Shown piece after piece: positions 4,299-39,955 of a stretch of DNA of 52,519 nucleotides. The notes beneath the pieces were generated by a model. It had not been told where the DNA came from and ran no database searches. It saw only the letters and a program-made list of their open reading frames with translations. Made by a program: the position numbers and the translations under genes. The stretch is from Candidatus Daviesbacteria bacterium RIFCSPHIGHO2_01_FULL_41_45 (GTDB lineage Bacteria > Patescibacteriota > Microgenomatia > Daviesbacterales > UBA10151), in the NCBI GenBank assembly GCA_001776975.1, contig MFCS01000022.1, positions 1-52,519 of the forward strand, in the 5' to 3' direction. How positions within the stretch are numbered: the first letter of the stretch is position 1; the number at the start of each line of letters is the position of its first letter.

Positions 4299-4415
4299 AA
4301 ACTTATCTTTTCTGGTTGATTTATTGGATATAGTGATGAATTAACTACCGCCATATTCATCGGTGCCAAATAAGCCAACTATTAAGCACGTTACCGTTGA
4401 GATTGAGACCCCTAA

Positions 4416-5384
4416 CTAGCTCTCGTTTTTTTGCAAAACCTCTTTAATGACAACCTGAATTACTACCGCTATTGGAACCGCCAACAATGCTCCAGCTACT
4501 CCCAAAAGTCTGCCCCCAACTGATACTGTTAATATTACCAATAAAGGATTTAGGCCCACTGCCCGTTTCATAACTTGGGGTACAACTAAGTGATTCTCCA
4601 GCTGTTGGATAGCTAAATATAAACCAGCTACTAATCCTGCCAAAACAGGGGAGACGGTCAGGGCAATTAATATTGCTGGGATAGCCGAGATAATTGGCCC
4701 AATAACAGGTACTACCTCCATTAAGCCAGCAATAATTGCCAATGACAGCGCAAACTCCACTCCCAAAACCTCTAGTCCAAGATAGGTTACTACACCAATA
4801 ATCAAAGATAGGATCAGCTGTCCTCTAAGCCACGCCCCTAGTTTTTCTTCAATCGTGGAGATCAACTTACTAACCTTTGATTGATTAGCAACAAAAAGTG
4901 AAGTTGCACGATCTTCAATACCTTTCCGATCTAATAACAGATAAAAAGTGACTACAATTACACTGACAAATCCAACTATAATCTTAAAAACATCCAAGGT
5001 ATAAGAGACTAGCTGGGAGGAGATCGAGGAAAACTGCCCTTGAATCACTGAACGATCAATATAGTTAGCCTGTAATAATCCACTAACAGCCTCCGACAAC
5101 CGTTGAGTCAAAGAGCTAGTCTGGATTATTAATGGAGTAAACCCGGCTGCTAAAACCCCAATCAATAACCCTAAAATAGCTAAAAATAAAATTACGATTG
5201 CCAATGGTCTAGGTATCCTCCAGGCTACTAATCTATCAACCAAGGGATACAAGGCTGACATTAGGATAAAGGATACAAACACCAATAAAATTATGTCTAA
5301 AATCAAATAGGTAATCCACAACGAGAGTAAAAAAAATGTTATAAAAAGAATCGTTTTCCAGGAGATATCAACTCGTCTATTCAT
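4416..5384 (-). CDS. AI-2E family (PerM-like) transporter
   Basis: Multi-TM; conserved C-terminal EVVPVIGPIISAIPAI...QQLENHLVVPQVMKRAVGLNPL. Confidence 0.88.
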   Translation of the reverse strand: MNRRVDISWKTILFITFFLLSLWITYLILDIILLVFVSFILMSALYPLVDRLVAWRIPRPLAIVILFLAILGLLIGVLAAGFTPLIIQTSSLTQRLSEAVSGLLQANYIDRSVIQGQFSSISSQLVSYTLDVFKIIVGFVSVIVVTFYLLLDRKGIEDRATSLFVANQSKVSKLISTIEEKLGAWLRGQLILSLIIGVVTYLGLEVLGVEFALSLAIIAGLMEVVPVIGPIISAIPAILIALTVSPVLAGLVAGLYLAIQQLENHLVVPQVMKRAVGLNPLLVILTVSVGGRLLGVAGALLAVPIAVVIQVVIKEVLQKNES

Positions 5385-35452: not shown

Positions 35453-35460
35453 ATAACTTG
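35453..35460. repeat. target-site duplication, left copy ATAACTTG
   Basis: Direct repeat abutting left TIR. Confidence 0.85.
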
Positions 35461-35479
35461 GGTAGTGGGTCAATTTGAA
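35461..35479 (+). repeat. left terminal inverted repeat GGTAGTGGGTCAATTTGAA
   Basis: Perfect reverse complement of 39068-39086. Confidence 0.9.
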
Positions 35480-35532
35480 ATTGAGCACTGATCTTGCTTG
35501 ACTGGTCATGTACCTTCTGATACGATTTCTTC

Positions 35533-35718
35533 ATGGATGTAAACAAGCTCGCTCATAGAATAACAAAGGAGGCTACTGAAGAAAAGAAAAATCCTGCTGC
35601 GGTAGCTCTAGGCAGGCTTGGTGGTTTAGTAGGTGGTCATGCGCGGGCAAAAAAACTTAGTGCAAAACGAAAAAAGGAAATTGCAAAGCAAGCTGCGAGT
35701 GCTCGGTGGTCAAAATAA
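35533..35718 (+). CDS. small basic protein (LGRLGGL-GG-ARA-LS-RKEIA--AA-ARW pattern)
   Basis: AAVALGRLGGLVGGHARAKKLSAKRKKEIAKQAASARWSK; promoter TTGACT-17-TACGAT just upstream. Confidence 0.8.
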   Translation: MDVNKLAHRITKEATEEKKNPAAVALGRLGGLVGGHARAKKLSAKRKKEIAKQAASARWSK

Positions 35719-35790
35719 ATAAGGTAAGTTAATAGTCATATTCCAGTACTTTCTTAGCCAGTTTATAAGTATTTCCATGCTTTAAAAGTC

Positions 35791-37770
35791 CTAAATCTGA
35801 GGGACTTGAGGTTCAGAAGGCTTGCGAAGGGAAAAGACAAACCGATTGACCAGAGCCCACTCGCGGGCAGGTCTCGCCCAACCGTCGTAGAGCCAAAGCT
35901 CGTCCCCACGGCGTCCCAGACCAAAGACGCCCGGACCGCCGTAAGAGCCTGAAATTTGTTTCATTGCAATATAACACCACTCGCCTACTTTTTGATTCTT
36001 ATACGCTATTCTATATTCCGGCCCTACTTCGGGAGGACATAGTTCTAATCCCAACTCCTTAGCTTTATCATAGATCTGATCAGTTGTTGGCGTACCTTTA
36101 TCAAACCCGAGGTCGGAAACTTTAAGAGTAACTAGTGTAAGGCTTTGCTTGTTTATTTCATTAGGAAAATCAGGATTATCAATCATGGTTTCAGCATAAC
36201 TACCGTCACTTTTTCTCCATTTAATATCATTACCATCCAATTTTTGTTTCAATTCTGCTTTCGTTTTACGTTCTATCTCTAATTCCTCTATGCGAATTTT
36301 TACTTCCGGGAATTTTGTATAAATATGATCTATGCCATACTTTGACAACAATTCGAAAACATCTGCTTGGAGAGGTCCAACATAGGCTTTAGTATCTGGT
36401 CTAATTTCGCTTGGATTCCTGGCAATTTGTTGTATCTCACAGCCAAAAACAACTGGCATATCTTCATCAGGAATTCTTTGCGAACGGATTGCATCAATAC
36501 GAGGATCTCTATTATAACCAAACCCTTCTATTGGAGCGTCTATTTCATACAAGAATGTTAAATCTTCTCCTGAAAGGTTTTGTCCAGTTTTTATTTTATG
36601 ATCGATAGCTGTCAAAGTTCTCATGTCAACTGATCTTTTTTTATACATCTTGCCTTCTTGCTCAAATTCCGGTTCAGACAATTTTGTGTCCACAACATCG
36701 CCTATATGGGCATCAAGATGCTCCTGTGTTGCTACTCCTCTGACTTCTGTAATACTTCCGTTTTGATTAATGACCATAACTACCCGGGGAACAACAGCGT
36801 CTCCTGCCTGGTCATTTGAATAATAAACATGCAAATCATTCTTATCATTTACGAGATACCGTCTGGCTACAGCTTCCCCTCGCAGACACCAGCCGGTACC
36901 ATAGTTAGCTATAGATGAAACCAGTTGTTTTGGATCAGACCCACTGGGATATTTAACCCATCTTCCTTCAGTGATTTTTAATAATTCCTCTCCTATCGGT
37001 TTAAACTCTTCTATTGCAAGACCATAAAGTTGACTGAAATTTTTATTATCTAAAGCTTTTAGATATTTTTGCTTTGCATCTCCCGAAATATCAAAACGAC
37101 TAGTGAATTCAAAATTAGTCCTATTACCAGGTTTGAGTTGGTCATTTGGATATTTCTTTTCGAGATCGTCCAAAACTATGGCTAAAGCTTCTCTGTTGAG
37201 TTCAGGGAAAGGAGCAGTCGTTCTTCCGCCTCTTGTTCTTTCATTAAAAACGCCTCGGTTTTTGTCATAATTACCCATCCCCAGAACACTTCTAAAAGCA
37301 AAATATTTCAACCAGTCTGGATATTTCGCATCATCTGAAACAAGATAGTCAATCCACAGATCAAGAGATCTTTTCTGATCTTCTACAATGGTTTGTGCAA
37401 GCTCTTGTCGGTTAACGGGTGGGATTTCAATATCTCCATGTCCTTCTTCTTTATGTTTACGTTTTATAGCATCATAATAACTTTCTGGTATGGTTTCTGG
37501 CTTAGTAACAAAATCTCTATGAAGGCCATGTTTTAGGAGTGTGACATTTCTTTCTTGCCTGTCAAAGTTATCATGACCTTCTAATAACTTAGGAGGATTA
37601 ATAACTCCATGTAAGCGATCAAGGTAATTTTGTATCCGAGTACTGAAATCACCTTGATCAACTGATTCACCTGTACGCTTCTCGTGGCGTTTTGCGGTAA
37701 TCACCACCCCAGGATCTTTATTCAGTTGATACTTTTGTTGAAGAAATTCTGCTCCGCTATTGTCTCCCAT
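35791..37770 (-). CDS. large hypothetical passenger protein (about 659 aa; ATG at 37770 preferred over GTG at 37785)
   Basis: Long ORF; motifs YGTGWCLRGEAVARRYL, DLHVYYSNDQAG, ITEVRGVA; SD AAGGTGG; upstream TATAAT. Confidence 0.8.
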   Translation of the reverse strand: MGDNSGAEFLQQKYQLNKDPGVVITAKRHEKRTGESVDQGDFSTRIQNYLDRLHGVINPPKLLEGHDNFDRQERNVTLLKHGLHRDFVTKPETIPESYYDAIKRKHKEEGHGDIEIPPVNRQELAQTIVEDQKRSLDLWIDYLVSDDAKYPDWLKYFAFRSVLGMGNYDKNRGVFNERTRGGRTTAPFPELNREALAIVLDDLEKKYPNDQLKPGNRTNFEFTSRFDISGDAKQKYLKALDNKNFSQLYGLAIEEFKPIGEELLKITEGRWVKYPSGSDPKQLVSSIANYGTGWCLRGEAVARRYLVNDKNDLHVYYSNDQAGDAVVPRVVMVINQNGSITEVRGVATQEHLDAHIGDVVDTKLSEPEFEQEGKMYKKRSVDMRTLTAIDHKIKTGQNLSGEDLTFLYEIDAPIEGFGYNRDPRIDAIRSQRIPDEDMPVVFGCEIQQIARNPSEIRPDTKAYVGPLQADVFELLSKYGIDHIYTKFPEVKIRIEELEIERKTKAELKQKLDGNDIKWRKSDGSYAETMIDNPDFPNEINKQSLTLVTLKVSDLGFDKGTPTTDQIYDKAKELGLELCPPEVGPEYRIAYKNQKVGEWCYIAMKQISGSYGGPGVFGLGRRGDELWLYDGWARPAREWALVNRFVFSLRKPSEPQVPQI

Positions 37771-37825
37771 ATGTTCTATACCCACCTTGTCGTAGAGTTA
37801 TTATAGCAAAAATGAGATTGTAAAT

Positions 37826-37972
37826 TAATCCTCACTCTCATCCTCCGACGACACAGTAATCCACCCAGTCTATCCGTTCACTCACTATACAGAAGACCCT
37901 AATTACAAACCAACAGAATGGGATGATCCTACGGTTCCTGAAGAAGGTTTTGATTCCTTAAGAAGGGAATAA
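37826..37972 (+). pseudogene. possible C-terminal remnant of a passenger gene
   Basis: Start-less open frame ...TVIHPVYPFTHYTEDPNYKPTEWDDPTVPEEGFDSLRRE* with protein-like composition. Confidence 0.3.
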
Positions 37973-37976
37973 TTAT

Positions 37977-38627
37977 CTACTTAGCTTTCCCAGATTCCAC
38001 AATTGAGATTATTGGTTGAGAAATATCTGGTTGTTTGGGCCATCGCTGCATATCGCCGTCATAATCAGAGCCTTTAGGAAATTTATAGGGATCATCGAAA
38101 CCTCTCCTTTTATACCATGAATAAAGAGGTCCCTGGGTTAATTTGCCGCCCTTGTCAACTGGATTTAAGTATATTCTCCAACCATTAAGATCTGCTAAAG
38201 CACAAAGGTTATCCAATAAAAAACTACCTACACCTTCTGCATTGTTATACCCAAATTTTTCTGGCAAATGTGCCGTCTCTGTCTGGATCATATCTACTCT
38301 AATTGCCGGAACATGGTCTGGAGTATCAAGATTATTGATCTCTAATACACCAACTCTTCCATTACCTAATTTATGGCTTTCTAGCCAATGGTCAAAACCT
38401 GGAGCGATTTCTCCTTTTTTCATCATTTCCTCGGCAGCAGATTTTTGATCCTCCCAATTAGGAACACTTACTGACCACTCAAAATCGGCAGGCTTGACTG
38501 GAATATCTCCCTCAAAAATATAAGGTAGGTCTTTTACTGCAACTTCTTGCCTAAAGTGTAGAGGTTTTGGCGCTTCTTTTTCTTGGATAGCAGGGTTACT
38601 CCCGAATTCTTGCGTATCAATTGCCAT
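37977..38627 (-). CDS. hypothetical protein with GNAT-like C-terminal motif
   Basis: NAEGVGSFLLDNLCALADLNGWRIYLNPVDKGGKLTQGPLYSWYKRRGF resembles GNAT acetyltransferase motif A/B. Confidence 0.6.
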   Translation of the reverse strand: MAIDTQEFGSNPAIQEKEAPKPLHFRQEVAVKDLPYIFEGDIPVKPADFEWSVSVPNWEDQKSAAEEMMKKGEIAPGFDHWLESHKLGNGRVGVLEINNLDTPDHVPAIRVDMIQTETAHLPEKFGYNNAEGVGSFLLDNLCALADLNGWRIYLNPVDKGGKLTQGPLYSWYKRRGFDDPYKFPKGSDYDGDMQRWPKQPDISQPIISIVESGKAK

Positions 38628-38684
38628 AAATGATTTATATCATATTTTAGGTAGTCTTACCCGGAGTTCTTAAGTTAAACAAAT

Positions 38685-39079
38685 TCAGAAATAGTTTATG
38701 CTCAGGTAATTAAAATATATGGACAACAACCAGAACAGGAAAAAAGGTACAGCCCAGCAGAGTGTGTTGCAACTGAAAAGCAGATTATGCAAGGAAATCC
38801 TGACATTACTAAAATCTCTACCAGCTATGTTGAAAGACAGAATTTAACCATGAGGATGAATATGCGAAGGTTTACCAGACTAACAAACGCCTTTTCAAAG
38901 AAAATACAAAACTTAGAACATGCAGTAGCACTCCATTTTATGTATTACAACTTCTGTAGACCACACAAGACTTTAAATCTGAAGAAATCTTTAGGCATAA
39001 CCCCTGCTATGGCCTCAGGGGTAACAAAGAAAAGATGGACAATAGGGGACATTATTTATTTGATTAATTCAAATTGACC
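38685..39079 (+). pseudogene. C-terminal fragment of an IS1-family-like DDE transposase
   Basis: In-frame TNSEIVYAQVIKIYGQQPEQEKRYSPAECVATEKQIMQGNPDITKISTSYVERQNLTMRMNMRRFTRLTNAFSKK...HFMYYNFCRPHKTL...TPAMASGV; N-terminal part absent (in-frame TAA upstream). Confidence 0.85.
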
Positions 39080-39086
39080 CACTACC
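39068..39086 (-). repeat. right terminal inverted repeat
   Basis: TTCAAATTGACCCACTACC. Confidence 0.9.
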
Positions 39087-39094
39087 ATAACTTG
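39087..39094. repeat. target-site duplication, right copy ATAACTTG
   Basis: Direct repeat abutting right TIR. Confidence 0.85.
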
Positions 39095-39128
39095 ACACTC
39101 TTAAGTATTATGTATAACAATAAGTCTG

Positions 39129-39410
39129 GTGATAGAGTCTCCTGTTTTTCCTAATCTAGTTCTAGGTGGAAAAAGTGTTTATGCTGCTTTTGGCATACTC
39201 ACTACGTTCGGCAGCGAGCTACAACGCTTCATTATAATCTCACAACAGATTCATCTACTGGAACCAGGGTCTGAAACTGTAAATGCTAGGATAGAGTATC
39301 TTTATGACTACCTAGATCCTCATACAGAAGATGGATTTGAATCTAAGATGATGTCGTGGAGAGAGATATATATAACTCACCAGCTAAGACATGTTTTCCA
39401 GAGACAATAA
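39129..39410 (+). CDS. hypothetical protein (93 aa)
   Basis: ORF; upstream TTGACA and TATAAC; convergent with next gene. Confidence 0.45.
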   Translation: MIESPVFPNLVLGGKSVYAAFGILTTFGSELQRFIIISQQIHLLEPGSETVNARIEYLYDYLDPHTEDGFESKMMSWREIYITHQLRHVFQRQ

Positions 39411-39644
39411 TCGCTCCCTTGCACTTTTCTGAAGTTCTTTTCTTGCTCCTCGAGCTCTCCCCAAAACTTCTGCTATAGCTACGCTCTCATGGATAGCAAC
39501 TCTGGGAAATCTACCATGTTCTCCATTAGGCTGCACCTCTTCCCACCCTAAAAACTCACATCCCCTGGTAATGCCTTCCATGTTGCTTAGGCGTTGCATG
39601 GGATCACCCGTAATTTTCCCTAATTGAGACTCTGTGTTTTCCAT
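39384..39644 (-). CDS. hypothetical protein (86 aa) immediately downstream of S10
   Basis: ORF tightly coupled to rpsJ. Confidence 0.55.
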   Translation of the reverse strand: MENTESQLGKITGDPMQRLSNMEGITRGCEFLGWEEVQPNGEHGRFPRVAIHESVAIAEVLGRARGARKELQKSARERLLSLENMS

Positions 39645-39646
39645 AA

Positions 39647-39955
39647 TTACATCTTTACTTCGATCTCAACTCCAGCTGGTAACTCTAAATGCATCAGTGA
39701 ATCAATGGTCTTGTCCGTTGGTTCAACAATCTCAACTAATCTTTTATGAATTTTTAACTCAAACGCTTCTTGGGAATCTTTATCTGTGAAAGGAGAACGG
39801 GGAACAGTAAATCTAGTAGTTTTTGTAGGAAGAGGTATCGGACCGACAATCTTGGCTCCGGTTCGTAAAGCTGTATCCAAAAGCTGCTCGGTCGTTGAAT
39901 CGAGCACCCGATAGTCATAGCTTTTTAATTTAATTCTAATTCTTCCTTTTGCCAT
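39647..39955 (-). CDS. rpsJ: 30S ribosomal protein S10
   Basis: RIRIKLKSYDYRVLDSTTEQLLDTALRTGAKIVGPIPLPTK. Confidence 0.97.
   Translation of the reverse strand: MAKGRIRIKLKSYDYRVLDSTTEQLLDTALRTGAKIVGPIPLPTKTTRFTVPRSPFTDKDSQEAFELKIHKRLVEIVEPTDKTIDSLMHLELPAGVEIEVKM

Follow-up and report, generated by a model that had tools for sequence, protein, structure and literature searches.

A non-autonomous IS1-type cargo transposon between S10 and L3 carries a gene of a diversity-generating retroelement target family

How a gene from a family that serves as the target of diversity-generating retroelements (DGRs), by which bacteria hypermutate genes so that their products recognize new partners, came to stand alone between the ribosomal protein genes S10 and L3 is the question raised by a 3.6-kb element in contig MFCS01000022.1 of Candidatus Daviesbacteria bacterium RIFCSPHIGHO2_01_FULL_41_45, the whole of which (52,519 nucleotides) is referred to here as the window. 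The answer proposed, which taken as a whole is considered highly probable, is that the element is a non-autonomous IS1-type cargo transposon carrying a captured DGR target gene. Its features are collected in Table 1.

The ends of the element are terminal inverted repeats (TIRs) that match at 19 of 19 bp, compared with a chance expectation of 0.01 for TIR matches with three or fewer mismatches in the window, and they are directly flanked by an exact 8-bp target-site duplication (TSD). A search of the whole host assembly (a draft of 34 contigs and 685 kb, 96% complete) found each end once and the pair to be unique. The insertion separates L3 (34406–35182) from S10 (39647–39955), which in nine relatives, none of the same genus, are adjacent with a gap of 177–949 bp and no insert; the window gap minus the element is ∼822 bp, within this range, and the empty site before insertion is expected to have read CAAACTATAACTTGACACTC. 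The perfect TIRs and TSD at this position, as given in the initial annotation, are confirmed from the sequence and support its reading of a single transposition event.

The larger cargo gene is a member of the family targeted by DGRs in Patescibacteria. Its 664-amino-acid (aa) product, initially regarded as an orphan of about 660 aa, has homologues with 40–63% overall identity in the same taxonomic family, and orphan status was rejected on this basis. In several of these relatives a repeat of the last 45 codons of the gene, rich in asparagine codons, lies downstream and is followed by a reverse transcriptase (RT); target gene, downstream template copy and RT together indicate the layout of a DGR, with a variable repeat (VR) ending the gene and a template repeat (TR) beyond it, which the RT adjoins in L027 and L028. 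Differences between TR and VR fall at template adenines in 19 of 19 cases in L033, 20 of 21 in L028, 23 of 26 in L027 and 27 of 27 in L030, and a smaller target gene and template on contig C6 (L032) of the window's own genome differ at template adenines in 18 of 18. In the transposon-borne gene, the 3′ end shows an adenine-specific signature against several of these TRs, differing from that of C6 at 28 of 40 adenines and 20 of 95 other positions (p = 1e-7), from that of L027 at 24 of 34 and 16 of 86 (p = 1e-7) and from that of L030 at 27 of 37 and 17 of 87 (p = 2e-8), that is, at 70–73% of adenines versus 19–21% of other bases. Controls that compared TRs with one another (p 0.8–1) or the gene body upstream of the VR (p ∼1) showed no adenine bias. 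The 3′ terminus CGCAAG is common to the window gene and all other VRs; the TRs have CGAAA. The transposon-borne gene is a former or potential DGR target that has been mobilized; it was rewritten from a template that can no longer be traced and is situated away from any assembled template or RT.

The family to which the transposon belongs has a fixed backbone, and its insertion duplicates 8 bp of the target. A scan of GTDB genomes found the exact 19-bp end in at least 118 stretches; among the matches listed, to which the counts that follow refer, these include Chloroflexi, Acidobacteria, Bacteroidetes, Alphaproteobacteria, Actinomycetota, Patescibacteria and others. Pairing of ends with a check of the flanks gave 31 complete element calls of 107 bp to 5.3 kb, 27 of them with perfect 8-bp TSDs; the window element likewise has 8 bp, in line with the 8–9 bp duplications invoked in the initial annotation. 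In all ten elements with a full transposase (>1 kb) the order is TIR-A, small basic protein, cargo, transposase and TIR-B, the small protein (61–91 aa) beginning 38–89 bp inside the end and having the same direction as the transposase; in some, cargo is also found past the transposase. Three plasmid elements with TSDs share the backbone plan, including the small protein. One element from a different taxonomic family within the class (L034, the same as L097) has identical 19-bp TIRs, its own TSD (AATTTTTC), a full 282-aa transposase whose frame runs into the TIR and, at the far end, a 63-aa protein homologous to the 61-aa protein of the window. These further copies, with full-length transposase and different cargo, answer the doubt that the initial annotation had itself attached to the transposon, namely that its ends might prove to have no other copies.

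The window element is now a non-autonomous member of this cross-phylum family of cargo-carrying IS1-type DDE transposons ('transporter IS'), lying in the S10–L3 intergenic gap with the 5′ half of its transposase gene replaced. The remaining frame (38682–39074) aligns with residues 152–282 of a 282-aa relative at 76% identity, and its stop codon (39075–39077) lies inside the right TIR, an arrangement also seen in the intact relative L034; the early description of about 130 C-terminal residues with a stop in this repeat holds, the exact number being 131. The catalytic triad is incomplete, the remnant beginning at sibling residue 152 and leaving only the E of SYVERQN. Assignment to an IS1-like class is supported by the full-length transposase of L034, which passes the cut-off of Pfam family PF03400 (DDE_Tnp_IS1; 27.9 bits, cut-off 24.1); the score for the NCBIfam IS1 model NF033558 is below its cut-off (53 versus 100 bits), and the siblings have one continuous frame of 278–293 aa in place of the two overlapping, frameshift-joined frames of classical IS1. 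Single-frame IS1 subgroups exist. The assembled genome contains no second transposase copy or helper, so that mobilization in trans, as first suggested, found no support there, and current mobility of the element is not supported.

Two orders of truncation and insertion can be envisaged, and the data do not separate them. Transposition may have taken place with an intact transposase, truncation and a swap of cargo following later at the window site; this course, given a little less than an even chance, agrees with the perfect TSD, with the little decay in the remnant and with the cargo standing at its usual place between the small gene and the transposase. However, transposase-less siblings with perfect TSDs (L083 and copies of 107–850 bp resembling miniature inverted-repeat transposable elements, MITEs) indicate that members of the family are commonly moved in trans. 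The loss of the 5′ half was probably recent, since the remnant frame is open and its nonsynonymous divergence (dN) from a relative of another family is 0.12.

Three passenger genes were initially counted in the element. Open reading frames of 61, 664 and 216 aa are indeed present, but the first does not qualify as cargo: the small protein occurs at a fixed place in one layout in 10 of 10 full-transposase elements, which makes its gene part of the backbone. It has invariant glycines and a terminal A-A-x-x-R-W motif and is predicted to form three helices; it gave no PDB fold match, plasmid homologues of the 61-aa protein were not found by single-sequence search, and the annotation 'histone H1' appears in one plasmid-element record. 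Transposase promoters across phyla share a TTGACAATGCTTGAGCGGTCAAGTATAAT-like sequence, and in Patescibacterial copies the palindrome is also present in the promoter of the small gene; a scan for the motif gave 17 hits inside 12 elements and three outside. The promoter-like TTGACT-17-TACGAT of the window, taken as a scan match, is not above chance. The distribution of the palindrome suggests that the small basic protein is a regulator, which would bind it in its own and the transposase promoters and thereby control transposition.

Table 1. Positions of the features of the transposon in the window
Feature	Position	Strand	Remarks
Left TSD, ATAACTTG	35453–35460	no strand	Identical to 39087–39094
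TIR-A, GGTAGTGGGTCAATTTGAA (19 bp)	35461–35479	+	Exact 19 bp in at least 118 genome stretches
Palindrome-like CTTGACTGGTCATG, candidate operator within promoter of 61-aa gene	35497–35510	+	Related CTTGAGCGGTCAAG in transposase promoters of siblings with an intact element
Promoter-like TTGACT-17-TACGAT just 5′ of 61-aa gene	35498–35526	+	9/12 matches; same position in siblings
61-aa basic three-helix protein (predicted), backbone accessory gene	35533–35718	+	Sibling annotated 'histone H1'
664-aa cargo protein, DGR target family	35791–37785	-	Core weakly PcfJ-like in predicted fold
Variable-repeat-like 3′ end of 664-aa gene	35821–35988	-	Alignable to DGR TRs, the differences being adenine-biased; CTTCGCAAG at its end
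216-aa cargo protein, named GNAT-like only from motifs	37977–38627	-	Motifs by eye
IS1-type transposase, C-terminal 131 residues	38682–39077	+	Of the catalytic residues, E is present and both Ds are absent; frame stops within TIR-B
TIR-B, perfect inverted copy of TIR-A	39068–39086	-	
Right TSD, ATAACTTG	39087–39094	no strand	From sequence

Several points weigh against the proposed explanation or parts of it. No known TR qualifies as the true template of the window VR, since each differs from it at 19–28% of non-adenine positions; neither the window nor contig C6 holds a better match, and the C6 template was rejected as one that currently rewrites the window VR on account of the 20 of 95 non-adenine differences. 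No match to RVT_1 or to the RTs of relatives is present in the 96%-complete assembly. The window copy is the only DGR target found inside such a transposon: nine other target loci all lie outside TIR/TSD elements by a test that recovers the L034 element, and the idea that other homologues of the 664-aa protein travel in the same transposon was discarded for want of paired ends and duplications at these loci. At the tolerance applied, L108, L134 and L099 lack the palindrome motif, whose role as an operator is read from sequence only.

An alternative considered rather unlikely is that this is an ordinary decayed IS1-type element in which the 664-aa gene is a dead bystander and the likeness to DGR targets reflects old ancestry without function. 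The truncated transposase, the lack of a matching TR or RT in the assembly and the absence of a known function for most cargo speak for this reading. However, the 664-codon frame is intact with a host-like third-position GC (0.289 versus 0.282 for L3), the VR keeps the terminus common to all VRs, and the perfect TIRs and TSD together with the open, little-diverged remnant indicate that decay has been slight.

The opposite possibility, that the window VR is still being rewritten in trans by a DGR located outside the assembled part of the genome, is regarded as improbable, and current diversification of this VR is not supported. Remote targets are nevertheless documented in other bacteria (PMC7517822, PMC10907252), and the pristine pair of target and template on contig C6 (L032, 4093–5248) has no RT beside it or elsewhere in the assembly, which argues that an RT exists or existed elsewhere; this pair looks recently active but lacks an RT, which leaves an incomplete assembly or loss of the RT as explanations. 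That a foreign transposon was merely joined into the ribosomal operon contig during assembly would be in keeping with a 34-contig draft and with the occurrence of the transposase in only one of 380 sampled genomes of the phylum, that of the window's host, but is very improbable given the exact 8-bp duplication on both sides, the match of GC and third-position GC to the host and the fact that the 664-aa family is native to the host's taxonomic family.

For a transposon with a captured DGR target, the following history is proposed. The transposon would have taken up the target gene from a DGR locus, probably within the host lineage since the third-position GC of the cargo agrees with that of the host. 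Transposition would then have separated the gene from its template and RT, leaving a 'frozen' recognition variant that could be rediversified only by a matching DGR acting in trans, while the element itself would now be immobile unless an intact relative entered the cell.

Sibling elements often carry defence genes. Their cargo includes an MvaI/BcnI restriction endonuclease with a methyltransferase (L129), an MmeI-type IIG enzyme (L122), a PD-Lambda-2 component (L108) and a MazE-like antitoxin (L095), as well as a SecB-like protein (L116), an NYN domain (L134) and several genes of no known function; in a plasmid relative, RES/Xre genes adjoin the transposase. It is conceivable, though doubtful, that this defence-carrying IS1-type family, with its invariant 19-bp end and small regulator, also carries DGR-born recognition proteins, by which hypermutated variants would be fixed and spread apart from the machinery that produced them.

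A distant, unannotated relative of the transposase (30%) is encoded by the Brevundimonas jumbo phage vB_BpoS-Gurke (H21, 174797–175666). In the Bacteroidetes genome SZAS-41 the exact 19-bp end occurs on several contigs (L076, L080, L084, L085, L093 and L100), and the copies on four of them are MITE-like, 121–153 bp long and flanked by duplications, which points to amplification of a non-autonomous set. The TIR string occurs in no relevant paper and the ends are described in none found in a literature search that lay outside ISfinder, where the family may already be catalogued; literature on ISMhu11 and on IS1 passenger genes gave no result for these elements, and no description was found there of a conserved small basic gene opposite the transposase.

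The fold of the 664-aa protein is predicted with moderate confidence (predicted local distance difference test, pLDDT, 74.7). Viral Foldseek hits 1, 3 and 4 are PcfJ-like (E 0.003–0.015, low TM-score), a PcfJ domain gave no Pfam hit, and the variable end domain shows weak lectin matches (E ∼3–5); both likenesses are regarded as leads. Phage homologues were not found by single-sequence search. In L028 (5693–7911) and L030 (5076–6970) the homologue lies in two frames beside the DGR, suggesting frequent loss. The sequence after the TR is conserved between genera (L032, 5249–5340; L027, ∼4400–4495), translates as YYLxPALxxGVFxxLxxLFFHPxxILPISS and probably forms the spacer portion of the DGR's template RNA. 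As for the 216-aa protein, the motifs that led to the label GNAT-like can be seen by eye, but a profile match is lacking (no Pfam or NCBIfam hit), and no homologue was found in 113 relatives, nor in plasmids by single-sequence search. Searches for solved-structure matches to the 61-, 664- and 216-aa proteins were without result.

Outside the element, an Rfam search of the S10–L3 gap was without result. An 86-aa open reading frame (39384–39644) overlaps the end of S10 on the same strand and has no match in the S10–L3 regions of 11 relatives. A promoter-like TTGACA-18-AACAAT is formed across the target duplication at the right junction (39092–39121) and is directed away from the element.

Patescibacterial DGRs are common and form their own clade, with poorly understood targets that lack known domains (PMC8144416). 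Transposons near DGRs and the dispersal of remote targets have been published (PMC10907252, PMC7517822), the former paper also proposing that DGR parts transpose 'as a cargo' (PMC10907252). For the question of how DGR targets spread far from their RT, this locus provides one bounded case with both ends and a TSD. The transposons themselves form a widespread family of compact elements that share a conserved accessory gene and frequently carry defence genes, and the invariant 19-bp end by which they can be found makes mining for unknown defence genes straightforward.

Among known systems, the element resembles the IS1 family (Pfam DDE_Tnp_IS1; 'transporter IS' and MITEs) in its IS1-type DDE transposase, short TIRs, 8-bp duplications, passenger genes and MITE derivatives. 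It departs from that family in the single 282-aa frame, in the NCBIfam IS1 score below cut-off and in having a conserved gene for a small basic protein at the other end, the window copy also lacking two catalytic residues. The larger cargo gene resembles the targets of DGRs of the Patescibacteria lineage (putatively clade 2; PMC8144416) in its C-terminal VR, in the TR and RT beside the target in relatives and in its adenine-specific differences; unlike them, it stands alone inside a transposon with neither TR nor RT. Mobile elements also adjoin DGR targets in Thiohalocapsa PB-PSB1 (PMC10907252) and among the dispersed variable proteins of cyanobacteria (PMC7517822), but there the association is one of proximity and remnants, whereas in the window a single element, defined by its paired ends and target duplication, contains the target gene. 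Finally, the family is comparable to defence-carrying transposons, its members bearing restriction-modification, PD-Lambda-2 and toxin-antitoxin-like genes, and differs from the others in being IS1-type and only 2–5 kb in length.
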